Assembly: GCA_960531495.1 (NCBI GenBank)
Contig: OY482852.1
Location: forward strand, 7,276,875 to 7,340,874
DNA length: 64,000 bases
Reading direction: 5' to 3'
From: Zeus faber
Taxonomy: Eukaryota; Chordata; Actinopteri; Zeiformes; Zeidae
A model generated the notes under the pieces. That model was not told the origin of the DNA. It was given only the letters and a program-made list of their open reading frames with translations, and searched no databases. Below, in pieces: positions 5,219 to 30,558 of this stretch. The stretch's first letter is position 1, and every line of letters begins with the position of its first letter. The position numbers and the translations under genes are program-made.

Positions 5219-5275
5219 CCCTAACCCTAACCCTAACCCTAACCCTAACCCTAACCCTAACCCTAACCCTAACCC
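5219..5275. repeat. interstitial telomeric repeat (CCCTAA)n
   Basis: About nine perfect head-to-tail copies of CCCTAA, the complement of the vertebrate telomere repeat TTAGGG, followed by one degenerate copy. It sits inside ordinary intergenic DNA, not at a chromosome end. Confidence 0.95.
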
Positions 5276-24245: not shown

Positions 24246-27200
24246 ATGCAGAAGCCCCCGGTTGTCCCGGCCCCCCCGGCCCTGCTGCTGCTGCTGCCGC
24301 TGCTGCTGCTGCTGGCCCTGGCCGCCCCGGCGCCGGGCGCGGCGGCGCGCTCGGACGCGCCGCGGGGCGTCGCGGTGCCGTTCGTGTTCGACCCGGCGGC
24401 GAGATGCGACCCGCCCTGCAGACACGCGGGCATCTGCATCCGAAACAACTCCTGCTTCTGCTCCAGGGGCTACGAGGGAGAGAGCTGCCAGTATGGTGAC
24501 GATGCTTTTACACTACTACTACAGTACTACTACAGTACTACTACAGTAATACTACGAGGGAGAGAGCTGCCAGTATGGTGACGATGCTTTTACACTACTA
24601 CTACAGTACTACTACAGTACTACTACAGTAATACTACAGTAATACTACGAGGGAGAGAGCTGCCAGTATGGTGACGATGCTTTTACACTACTACTACAGT
24701 ACTACTACAGTACTACTACAGTACTACTACAGTAATACTACAGTAATACTACGAGGGAGAGAGCTGCCAGTATGGTGACGATGCTTTTACACTACTACTA
24801 CAGTACTACTACAGTACTACTACAGTAATACTACGAGGGAGAGAGCTGCCAGTATGGTGACGATGCTTTTACACTACTACTACAGTACTACTACAGTACT
24901 ACTACAGTAATACTACAGTAATACTACGAGGGAGAGAGCTGCCAGTATGGTGACGATGCTTTTACACTACTACTACAGTACTACTACAGTACTACTACAG
25001 TACTACTACAGTAATACTACAGTAATACTACGAGGGAGAGAGCTGCCAGTATGGTGACGATGCTTTTACACTACTACTACAGTACTACTACAGTACTACT
25101 ACAGTAATACTACGAGGGAGAGAGCTGCCAGTATGGTGACGATGCTTTTACACTACTACTACAGTACTACTACAGTACTACTACAGTAATACTACAGTAA
25201 TACTACGAGGGAGAGAGCTGCCAGTATGGTGACGATGCTTTTACACTACTACTACAGTACTACTACAGTACTACTACAGTACTACTACAGTAATACTACA
25301 GTAATACTACGAGGGAGAGAGCTGCCAGTATGGTGACGATGCTTTTACACTACTACTACAGTACTACTACAGTACTACTACAGTAATACTACGAGGGAGA
25401 GAGCTGCCAGTATGGTGACGATGCTTTTACACTACTACTACAGTACTACTACAGTACTACTACAGTACTACTACAGTAATACTACGAGGGAGAGAGCTGC
25501 CAGTATGGTGACGATGCTTTTACACTACTACTACAGTACTACTACAGGAATACTACAGTAATACTACGAGGGAGAGAGCTGCCAGTATGGTGACGATGCT
25601 TTTACACTACTACTACAGTACTACTACAGTAATACTACAGTAATACTACGAGGGAGAGAGCTGCCAGTATGGTGACGATGCTTTTACACTACTACTACAG
25701 TACTACTACAGTACTACTACAGTAATACTACAGTAATACTACGAGGGAGAGAGCTGCCAGTATGGTGACGATGCTTTTACACTACTACTACAGTACTACT
25801 ACAGTACTACTACAGTAATACTACGAGGGAGAGAGCTGCCAGTATGGTGACGATGCTTTTACACTACTACTACAGTACTACTACAGTACTACTACAGGAA
25901 TACTACAGTAATACTACGAGGGAGAGAGCTGCCAGTATGGTGACGATGCTTTTACACTACTACTACAGTACTACTACAATACTACTACAGTAATACTACG
26001 AGGGAGAGAGCTGCCAGTATGGTGACGATGCTTTTACACTACTACTACAGTACTACTACAGTACTACTACAGTAATACTACGAGGGAGAGAGCTGCCAGT
26101 ATGGTGACGATGCCTTTACACTACTACTACAGTACTACTACATCACTACTACAGTAATACTACAGTAATACTACGAGGGAGAGAGCTGCCAGTATGGTGA
26201 CGATGCCTTTACACTACTACTACAGTACTACTACAGTACTACTACAGGAATACTACAGTAATACTACGAGGGAGAGAGCTGCCAGTATGGTGACGATGCT
26301 TTTACACTACTACTACAGTACTACTACAGTACTACTACAGTAATACTACGAGGGAGAGAGCTGCCAGTATGGTGACGATGCCTTTACACTACTACTACAG
26401 TACTACTACAGTAATACTACAGTAATACTACAGTAATACTACGAGGGAGAGAGCTGCCAGTATGGTGACGATGCCTTTACACTACTACTACAGTACTACT
26501 ACAGTAATACTACAGTAATACTACAGTAATACTACGAGGGAGGGAGCTGCCAGTATGGTGACGATGCCTTTACACTACTACTACAGTACTACTACAGTAC
26601 CACTACAGTACAACTAGAGTAATACTACGAGGGAGAGAGCTGCCAGTATGGTGACGATGCCTTTACAGTACTTCTACAGTACTACTACAGTAATACTACA
26701 GTAATACTACAGTAATACTACGAGGGAGAGAGCTGCCAGTATGGTGACGATGCCTTTACACTACTACTACAGTACTACTACAGTAATAGTACGAGGGAGA
26801 GAGCTGCCAGTATGGTGACAATGCCTTTACACTACTACTACAGTACTACTACATCACTACTATAGTAATACTACGAGGGAGAGAGTTGCCAGTATGGTGA
26901 CGATACCTTTACACTACTACTACAGTACTACTTCATCACTACTACAGTAATACTACGCAGGAGAGTGCTGCCAGTATGGTGACGATGCTTTATACGACTA
27001 CTACACTACTTCTACAGTAATACTACAATAATATTATGAGGGAGAGAGCTGCCAGTATGGTGATGATACCTTTACACTACTACTACAGTCCTACTACAGT
27101 AATACTACGATGGAGAGAGCTGCCAGTATGGTGATGAGGCACAGCACTACTACAGTACTACTACAGCACTGCTACAGTACTACTTCAGCACTATTAGAGT

Positions 27201-30200
27201 AATACTATGAGGGAGACAGCTGCCAGTATGGTGTTGATGCACAGCACTACTACAGTACTACTACAGCACTACTACAGTAATACTACAAGGGGGGCAGCTG
27301 CCAGTATGGTGATGATGCACAGCCTTTACACTACTACTACAGCACTACTACAGTACTACTACGAGAGAGAGCTGCCAGTATGGTGATGATGCACAGCACT
27401 TCTACAGTACTACTACAGTAATACCACAGTAATACTACGAGGGAGAGAGCTGCTAGTATGGTGATGATGCCTTTACACTGCTTCTACAGTACTACTACAG
27501 TACTACTACAGCACTACTACAGTAATACTACGAGGGAAAGAGCTGCCAGTATGGTGATGATGCACAGCACTACTACAGTACTACTACAGCACTACTACAG
27601 TCACACTACGAGTGAGAGAGCTGCCGGTATGGTGATGATGCACAGCACTATTGCAGTACTATTTCAGTCCTACTACAGAACTACTGCAGTAATACTACGA
27701 GGGGGGGGAGCTGCCAGTATGGTGATGATGCACAGCCTTTACACTACTACTACTACGGTTCTACTACAGTAATACTGCAGTAATTCTACGACAGAGAAAG
27801 CTGCCAATAAGGTGTTAACGCATACATGATCTGTCTGTCTGTCTGCCTGTCTGTCTGTGTTAACAGTGTAGTATCTCACACAGGCTACATGTATCATTGT
27901 TTTCAGTTGTGTAAAAAGTACTGAGACCTTTGACTGAATTTAAGTAACACAACTGTTTTAGAAATGTAGTAAAAATTATAGATATTTGCTTTGAAATGTC
28001 ATGAGTCAATTTTGAAAAATTTTCAAATGGAATATATTTAAATATGGTTTTGTCATCTTATTAACAAAGTTTTGCAAATTTACATTTTGTGTGCTCAACA
28101 CAGCCAACTGCTATCCCAAATGTAAGAATGGAGGACAGTGTCTTCGCCCTGGGAAATGCAGATGCCCCCCTGGATTTGGTGGAAAATACTGTCACAAAGG
28201 TTTGCAAATAGCTTTTTGTAGTACTTCGTTTTCATTTTGTCAATTCATTTTTTTGTTTGTCAATTTCCCGCCCTCAGCTGAGCGCACAACGGGAGTCTAC
28301 CATCCAATTTCAATAAGTTTCATTTTGTTGTCTGAGTGATGCCGGAAGATGATTGAGAACATCCATCGGTTTTATAGAACCTTCCTATAATAAATGCAGA
28401 AACCCGGACGATTTTCAGCTCTTATCGATGTACCTAATTTTACCCCCCCCAAAAAAAAACACATGGTCTTGAAATGTAAAAAAAAAAAAATGCAGCAGTG
28501 GCTGAAAAAAACCCGACAACGATTACATCTTGATTCTCCAAGTCCGATGGTGATATTAATGCATAATGTAAGTCGTTACGTTGATCAGGACTGTTCCGGT
28601 TGATGTGTTTGGAGACGTTCTGCCGGCGTTGTATTGATGCCGTTGTCTTTGTCAGTGACGTGCGACGGTGGATGTTGGAACGGGGGGGAATGCATCGCCG
28701 TCCATGGAGTGGCCAAGTGCATCTGCCCCTCGAGCTGGACGGGCTCCAAATGCCAGGAGGGTACGTTTGCAGCCCTGAATAATGACCCCCCCCCCCGTCA
28801 GGACCATGGGTCAAAACCACCACAGGGGACGTGGGTTTTCTGGTCCCCTCAGCTGTGGCCGCTTGTCAGCGCACGTCTGCTCCCGACATTCCAGCCGCTC
28901 CCGCCCCGCTGTCATCGGGAGCGGCGGCGGCGGCGGCGTCCGTCCAGTAATCGTGAACGGGATTTAAATCGAATGTGCGTGATTTGTGGCTTCCTGACGT
29001 GCCGGGGATGACTGGCCACTGTGTTCCCTTCCCTCCCCAGCGATCTGCCCCCAGGGCTGCAGGAACGGGGGCAGCTGCGTGGCCCCGGGAATCTGCAGCT
29101 GTCCAGAGGGCTGGCTGGGTGGAGCCTGCCACACCGGTGGGTCCTGCCCGTCTGTCCGTCTGTCTGTCTGTCTGTCTGTCTGTCTTGTCATGCCTGGTCT
29201 GCCCGTCTCTCTCTCTATTCTGCCGTGACACACTATGATTTCAAGATTCGTTATTTGTCACATGCAGTCATACAACTACATATATGATATATATATGTAT
29301 ATATATATATATATATATATGTGTGTATGTATGTCTATATATATAATATATACTGTATGTATATATACATACATACATTACATTTCACTGCATATATGTA
29401 TGGAAGTATGTATATGTATGTGACAAATAAAAATCTTGAATGCACACACACACACAACAAAGCAAAAATATTGAGTTATGTAACACACAGTGTGAAATGG
29501 GGAGATAAACACTTGGTCTGGGGGTGTTTTGGGTTTCTGGGTACAGTGCTGTACAGCTGTAATGAGCAACAAGGTGCATTATGTGCAATGATGCATATGT
29601 GACAGTGAACATAAATACAAATCGACTGAAGATTATATATTGTTTTGATGTGGAGCTTCAGCTGCTCCGGGGTCGTTCTCATGTCGACTTCTCGGTGAAG
29701 GAAAAACGGAAATCTTAGCAGAGTCGTACCCGCCAGCGCGCGGGTACGACTCGGGCACGCAAGCTCAGAAGCACAAGCACATGCACTGGCATACAAAGAC
29801 ACACACCTCGGAGTTGACTCAGTTTTGATTACTTCTTACACGCAAACACACACACACACACACACACATACACACGGTTCTTGCGCAGAAAGTACTAAAA
29901 ACAACAAGTAAACCTTGTCCGAGAGCCTTCCTGCAGATGTGAGGTAGAGTGTACGGGCTCTTATTCTACGGGAACAGTGAATCTGAACCTGTTCAGCGAG
30001 CTGAGCTGGTCACAGCTCAGTGCTTTTCCAGATGTGACCCCTGTCAAGAGAGTTTTACGAGCTCCTTTCTCCTTGTGTCCCACCTCGGCCCAACGCTGCG
30101 TCTGCACAATCTGGCTTTACAAGAAAACGATTTCTAGTAAAAACTACGAAAGGATATCCCGTTCTCAACGTTTTTTATGTCAAGGACCCTCAATTTGATG

Positions 30201-30558
30201 TGCATTGGGCCACAGATCCCATTTAAGATCCCATTTGGCTCTGGGACGTGGGAACCCAACAGAAGATTTTATAGATATGATCTATGATCTTGTAAATGAA
30301 ATTTTAATGCATTTATTGTGAATTTACTGTATAGTAAATCATTGTTGCCGGGGACCAGGAAACCTCTTCAAGGACCCCTGGCAGGTCCCCGGACCCCAGG
30401 TTGAGAACCACTGCTTTAAAACATGTTCATATAATTCTCTCTCTGTAGCCGTGTGCAGTCGTCCCTGCCTGAACGGAGGAAAGTGCATTTCTCCGGAGAC
30501 GTGCCGCTGTCGCGCCCCGTTCTCTGGCCCGCGGTGCGATGAGAGGAAGTCCCACTAG
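24246..30558 (+). CDS. secreted protein with five EGF-like domains
   Basis: Coding exons are 24246-24495, 28104-28199, 28656-28760, 29041-29136 and 30449-30558 (TAG). All introns are phase 1 and the product is 218 aa. Residues 1 to about 32 are a Leu-rich signal peptide (PALLLLLPLLLLLALAAPAP). Five six-cysteine EGF modules follow, each with about one exon. EGF-1 is C54-C81, and the later ones carry CKNGGQC, CWNGGEC, CRNGGSC and CLNGGKC. The protein ends CDERKSH, just after the last EGF, with no transmembrane segment, so it is probably extracellular. The modules resemble those in VWDE and WIF1, but no WIF or vWD domain is present. I do not recognise the gene by name. Exons 2 and 4 are 96 bases, the same as the EGF exons of the convergent vwde gene, which suggests common origin. 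The donor of exon 1 lies inside a huge tandem repeat. Confidence 0.85.
24473..27806 (+). repeat. 3.3 kb minisatellite carrying the exon 1 end and splice donor
   Basis: About 39 tandem units, counting the real exon end. Each holds GAGAGAGCTGCCAGTATG followed by GTGACGATG (or GTGATGATG), then an array of 11-base units of the type CTACTACAGTA. Unit starts at 24473, 24555, 24648, 24752, 24834, 24927, 25031, 25113, 25206 and 25310 give lengths 82, 93, 104 repeated three times. Later lengths are 82, 93 and occasionally 71. Copies beyond about 26950 are increasingly degenerate. The first unit is the authentic end of exon 1 (24495). Confidence 0.97.
27807..28103 (+). other. remainder of intron 1 of the five-EGF gene
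   Basis: A short (CTGT)n run at 27832-27858, then AT-rich unique sequence up to the acceptor CACAG ending at 28103. Confidence 0.6.
29146..29184. repeat. (CTGT)n microsatellite
   Basis: About nine CTGT units directly after exon 4 of the five-EGF gene. Confidence 0.9.
29238..29441. mobile_element. short inverted-repeat element (MITE-like)
   Basis: The left end TTCAAGATTCGTTATTTGTC and the inverted right end TTCAAGATTTTTATTTGTCA match over about 20 bases. The interior is mostly (TA/GTAT)n. It lies in intron 4 of the five-EGF gene and is related to the left edge of the repeat at 5378. Confidence 0.65.
30156..30416. mobile_element. hAT-type non-autonomous element, copy 1
   Basis: The right end GGTTGAGAACCACTGC is a classic hAT-type terminus and the left end is a degenerate inverse (CCCGTTCTCAACGTTTTT). 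It shares AAGGACCCTCAATTT and the right terminus with copies at 34270-34606 and 35718-35990. No transposase. Confidence 0.7.

Follow-up and report, generated by a model that had tools for sequence, protein, structure and literature searches.

The first intron of a secreted EGF gene of Zeus faber holds a tandem array in which the end of exon 1, together with its 5' splice donor, is repeated 38 times downstream of the authentic copy. Judged by comparison with related sequences, this array is a derived amplification of a genuine exon boundary. Similar arrays, likewise carrying the 11-base repeat (GTACTACTACA)n, are found at other exon ends of the Zeus faber genome, and the process looks like a recurring way of splice-site multiplication in this species. 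We propose, with a probability of roughly 0.8 and on sequence evidence, that these arrays are mirages, as such boundary-spanning repeats are called in amphioxus, that they were formed by one minisatellite family, and that they are spliced from the first donor.

Results

The host gene and its authentic donor

The window, by which we mean the whole stretch of 64,000 nucleotides that was analysed, contains on its + strand a gene with five coding exons, the introns of which (1-4) are all in phase 1 and the product of which is a predicted 218-aa protein. Pfam EGF matches are found in this protein, which reads by eye as a hydrophobic leader followed by five EGF modules. The gene is a secreted EGF gene and a teleost relative of SERAF, which is described as known in avian Schwann-cell precursors (PMC11463963, PMC7564073). 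It is adjoined on the opposite strand by a VWDE gene (VWDE immunoglobulin domain, E 7e-29). A perfect interstitial telomere-type repeat, (CCCTAA)9.5, lies at window positions 5219-5275.

24246..24495, + strand: exon 1 coding part, with hydrophobic leader, linker and EGF 1; 3' end ...CAGTATG (predicted protein, Pfam EGF, relatives aligning across the junction)
24496..24501, + strand: authentic 5' splice donor GTGACG, as inferred from phase 1 and the read-through peptides CQYGD(V/D)
28104..28199, + strand: exon 2, EGF 2 (gene prediction and relatives)
28656..28760, + strand: exon 3, EGF 3 (gene prediction and relatives)
29041..29136, + strand: exon 4, EGF 4 (gene prediction and relatives)
30449..30558, + strand: exon 5, EGF 5, stop TAG (gene prediction and relatives)

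The exon-1 end and the donor inside the repeated unit are the real ones, as the initial annotation had assumed; this is borne out by two kinds of relatives among the 66 of 134 related proteins that a motif rule chose as covering the exon-1 end. First, of 37 junction-type relatives, 30 have EGF 2 immediately after CQY; in five the junction is with a later EGF exon, and the last two have other sequence there. Second, the read-through peptides continue as G-D-(V/D) in 25 of 29 cases, implying a GTGAYG donor, and as G-E in the other four. A motif test found no second exon end within the first 40 residues of any of these 29 read-through relatives, of which 15 cover at least 20 intron residues; a second unit would start near residue 19, a position that two of the 15 barely reach, since they span only 20 residues. 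Because the relatives share junction and donor and show no second copy, the donor is old and the array not, among the sequences sampled. Sharing at this level (30/37 for the junction, 25/29 for the GTGAY donor) is also at odds with an introner or other intron gain, by which the intron would be new here. When the array-encoded peptide was used as a probe of other species, no match was obtained at E 0.01.

Structure and divergence gradient of the array

The array accounts for 3323 of the 3608 bases of intron 1 (92%).

24470..27818, + strand: array of 39 units, each with 26 exon bases, donor, intron start and 11-base sub-repeats (core scan, self-match)
24470..25467, + strand: exact 279-base higher-order repeat (82+93+104), authentic exon end included (self-match)
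24513..24559, + strand: first stretch of GTACTACTACA-like 11-base repeats within the unit (motif scan)
27034..27818, + strand: units 29-38, the oldest and most diverged, with donors mostly GTGATG and a last copy reading AAG|GTGTTA

A scan allowing at most two mismatches finds 39 AGCTGCCAGTATGGTG cores at 24483-27814 on the + strand, that is, one authentic exon end and 38 later copies, and none outside the array on either strand of the window. The amplification of exon end plus donor reported by the initial annotation is thereby confirmed, and its number of further copies, 38, is exact by core count; its bounds of 24473..27806 need correction, as the unit starts at 24470 and the array reaches about 27818. 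Core-to-core steps stay within 71-104 bases, so no unit was skipped, and the proximal steps of 82, 93 and 104 bases differ by 11, i.e. by one sub-repeat. The 11-base repeat (GTACTACTACA)n makes up half of each unit and, with up to three mismatches in 23 bases, matches in the window only within the array. GT is kept in all 39 units and ATG|GT in 38 of them, and the 30-mer running from the exon end through the donor occurs exactly 25 times in the 803-Mb assembly, always within the array (reversed-pattern control, 0 occurrences).

The units, the last of which is cut, comprise 27 distinct sequences, and their edit distance to the consensus grows with distance from the exon (Spearman rho 0.83). The earlier description of the changes as minor is apt in the proximal two thirds, where 36-mers are identical in 25 of the 39 units (all among units 0-25), and less so distally, where units 26-37 carry 2 to 5 edits and the last unit carries 9. 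The first 998 bases have an exact period of 279, with a 719-base exact self-match beginning at 24470. This exactness would suit an assembly artefact, an explanation that we consider extremely improbable, since the 803-Mb assembly consists of 153 contigs, chromosome-scale ones included, since only two of units 21-38 are alike, and since arrays built in the same manner are present elsewhere in the genome. Copy number within the exact 998-base block could nevertheless be a matter of assembly.

Strand structure as a driver of the amplification was rejected, as the 279-base stretch folds no better than shuffled sequences (z +1.69).

In the aged units 18-37, the block corresponding to 24484-24499 (-12 to +4 around the donor) shows four change events, as compared with 18 in the 14 exon bases preceding it. 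Such a depletion might be taken to mean that the copies are kept for function, as a run of U1 sites near the promoter that guards against early polyadenylation or boosts transcription. Several points speak against this: the block was picked after looking at the data (permutation P 0.019), it is unlike a U1 footprint in that +5 and +6 vary, nowhere else is the unit less repetitive, and the same protein is kept by relatives with no visible second copy. We therefore regard a retained function of this kind as highly improbable.

Predicted consequences of donor choice

Splicing from any of the 38 later donors is predicted to cut the reading frame short, with a premature stop following 111 or 117 residues, and these stops fall 278 to 3530 bases upstream of the last junction; mRNAs made from later donors, if they are used, would be open to nonsense-mediated decay. 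Conversely, use of the first donor would give the functional mRNA, with the later donors spliced out together with the intron. The suggestion that copy number could alter the message thus needs to be modified, as a graded effect of copy number on the protein is unlikely when every later donor leads to a stop-containing message.

We found no sequence feature that favours the first donor over the later ones except its position. U1 pairing energy is -5.1 kcal/mol in each of units 0-28, and, by donor and acceptor matrices, the donor scores 1.1 bits in 36 of 39 units (0.2, 2.8 and 3.7 bits for the remaining donors of the gene) and cryptic acceptors inside the unit score 3.2, as against 1.2, 1.3, 6.0 and 2.7 for the real acceptors of exons 2-5. 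With acceptor scores of this order, cryptic exons are conceivable. This equality of donors and strength of acceptors would also suit a model in which donor choice is spread over the array, such that some transcripts keep repeat sequence, either as noise or as a down-regulation switch that acts via nonsense-mediated decay and is tuned by copy number. The model has a counterpart in 6-16/IFI6, which is reported to use two downstream repeat units as donors (PMC4526556). We nevertheless consider it unlikely, given that amphioxus mirages reportedly splice normally, that 38 of 38 alternative donors are non-productive at the window gene, and that GT has been lost in copies of sister arrays (2 of 9 at INTS3, 10 of 164 at PDE1B), as would be expected if the copies were not needed. 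Splicing from the first donor is accordingly the reading that we carry forward.

A dispersed repeat beside splice donors

Beyond what the initial annotation had described, the 11-base repeat of the unit is found genome-wide and the same capture of exon ends is seen in other genes. When the species' own genome was searched with one 93-base unit, 195 matches were obtained and 40 of 76 candidates were scored; among the matches listed, the exon part is confined to the window array and the 11-base part recurs at 29 other loci. The 11-base unit starts with a donor-like GTACTA and ends with CTACAG. All 29 listed loci were examined in sequence. The repeat tract starts exactly at AG|GT in five of them (P 6e-7 at an assumed chance of 1 in 176 per tract, the rule being set once the pattern was already apparent). 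The comparison repeat (ACATGACA)n has three loci only and gives no matched control, which leaves phase as the sole internal control.

At 8 of the 29 listed loci, the tract begins 0 to 35 bases past the donor of a homology-supported exon. INTS3, SIGMAR1, PDE1B, ZDHHC17, SHANK3 and CACNA1C have exons recognised by solved-structure matches (E 1e-53 to 7e-9), RIMS1 is the seventh case and a C2H2 zinc finger the eighth (Pfam 3e-9, just under its cut-off); these names denote the best match, paralogues not being told apart. Another five loci (L025, L026, L034, L039 and L040) look exon-like, four having no convincing match and L026 being too short. In the other 16, more than half of the set, the start of the tract is not beside a donor or could not be judged: inspection by eye revealed no sense-strand exon in the upstream stretch of 15, and L038 was left unjudged. 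The repeat family clusters towards chromosome ends: by hand count, 18 of the 29 listed loci are no more than 2 Mb away from the end of a contig. Introns near contig ends may be repeat-filled generally, which alone could place tracts beside donors.

Sister arrays at other genes

The following arrays of exon ends, and one further tract (L047), were found, with counts that vary with the mismatch limits used:

PDE1B, G000:C18:31033177-31046733 (L048, L042, L041, L022): 164 exon-end cores, mostly in 60-base units, spread along 13.6 kb and interrupted by a single gap of 3,678 bases; 154 are followed by GT
PI4KB (L046; named from the following exon): 54 exon-end copies, 49 with GT
INTS3: 9 exon-end copies, 7 with GT
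BOP1 (L045): two exons multiplied, with 9 and 7 copies, all with GT
SIGMAR1: 2 copies of exon end plus donor
L049, 1588-3217, reverse orientation (a gene without peptide match): 21 exon-end copies, all with GT, the donor being GTGAGT (18) or GTTAGT (3)
L047: tract starting at AG|GT, downstream of a frame that looks exon-like but has no match

Three of these arrays (INTS3, PDE1B and SIGMAR1) belong to the 29 listed loci; L045, L046, L047 and L049 were found via 11-mer or AG|GT patterns and are for that reason not an unbiased sample. Across the first 60-base units of PDE1B the frame remains open over 99 residues, and splicing from one of the first few later donors could therefore insert repeats of 20 residues in frame there. 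At L049, the copies in the inspected stretch follow CTACTACAG, and each could therefore act as a mini-exon. In several of the arrays the captured piece begins at a point of existing resemblance between exon and repeat, for example at CTAC in the window gene and at ACAC or ACA in PDE1B and PI4KB; microhomology may have made the joins.

At RIMS1 it is the acceptor side that is multiplied too, the exon start being present 4 to 5 times including the real one (two probe cores), at L029:950-1310 and upstream (L043) in steps of 95-102 bases. A near-alike insert (by eye) of about 420 bases breaks the repeat tracts of both INTS3 (L012, about 2270-2700, reverse orientation) and RIMS1 (L029, about 1550-1970), and is possibly a mobile element landing in these arrays.

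Discussion

The initial annotation knew of no described case of this kind; this does not hold, as both the mirages of amphioxus and human 6-16/IFI6 are precedents. Mirages are described as tandem repeats spanning exon-intron boundaries, in the genes Adh3, globin Gb6/Gb9, troponin C and PGBD5, which are unstable in length and leave regular splicing undisturbed (PMC3087553, PMC3902484). The window array likewise has a tandem unit spanning the boundary, splice signals in its copies (39/39 GT) and concerted evolution inside with a diverged edge, here on the distal side only. It differs from mirages in its host, a teleost rather than amphioxus, in its size and in belonging to a set tied to one repeat: 39 copies at the window gene and 164 at PDE1B compare with the 3 and 6 reported from two amphioxus Gb6 haplotypes, and, unlike amphioxus mirages, the Zeus faber arrays share one dispersed 11-base repeat with a donor-like GTACTA start.

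In human 6-16/IFI6 (G1P3), an exon-end minisatellite is reported to supply several splice donors, with downstream ones used and three mRNA species formed (PMC4526556). The window gene behaves differently in prediction, since none of its 38 later donors leads into an open frame. Use of the downstream donors of 6-16/IFI6 is said to keep the frame open, and PDE1B, in which the first units are open and in frame, is nearer to that gene than the window gene is. Tandem repeats at exon-intron boundaries in human segmental duplications have been linked to new or altered splicing, exonic repeats being proposed there to create introns (PMC2812944), whereas here an old, conserved intron has the repeat inside it. 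An intron repeat of Sparus MSTN-2 was considered as a fish precedent and rejected, as the available part of its description presents a 150-base intron block and mentions no exon part.

The gradient of divergence and the microhomology are probably explained as follows. Intron 1 would once have held a stretch of the dispersed (GTACTACTACA)n, and a tandem duplication may have linked the end of this stretch (...AATACTAC) to CTAC, which it matches, among the final coding bases of exon 1. The resulting unit would have comprised 26 bases of the exon along with the donor and the first part of the intron. Unequal exchange or slippage could then have multiplied this unit, most recently in three-unit blocks at the exon side. 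Because multiplication would have been latest there, the authentic exon end sits in the freshest, identical block, with old copies decaying towards exon 2.

A bolder proposal, which we put forward tentatively and at somewhat less than even odds, is that (GTACTACTACA)n is a donor-tropic minisatellite, which would seed at the donor sites of old introns, from there repeatedly pull exon ends into arrays and so have multiplied the genuine donors of seven or more genes, in one of them more than 150-fold, and which could add 20-residue repeats to the protein at PDE1B.

Taken together, these arrays extend a curiosity of lancelets to a vertebrate genome, in which it seems to arise repeatedly and with one identifiable repeat. 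They are natural competition assays, in which 2 to 164 similar donors stand behind the same exon end, and as such they bear on how the spliceosome chooses one 5' splice site among equals. They also record the birth of minisatellites at exon ends.
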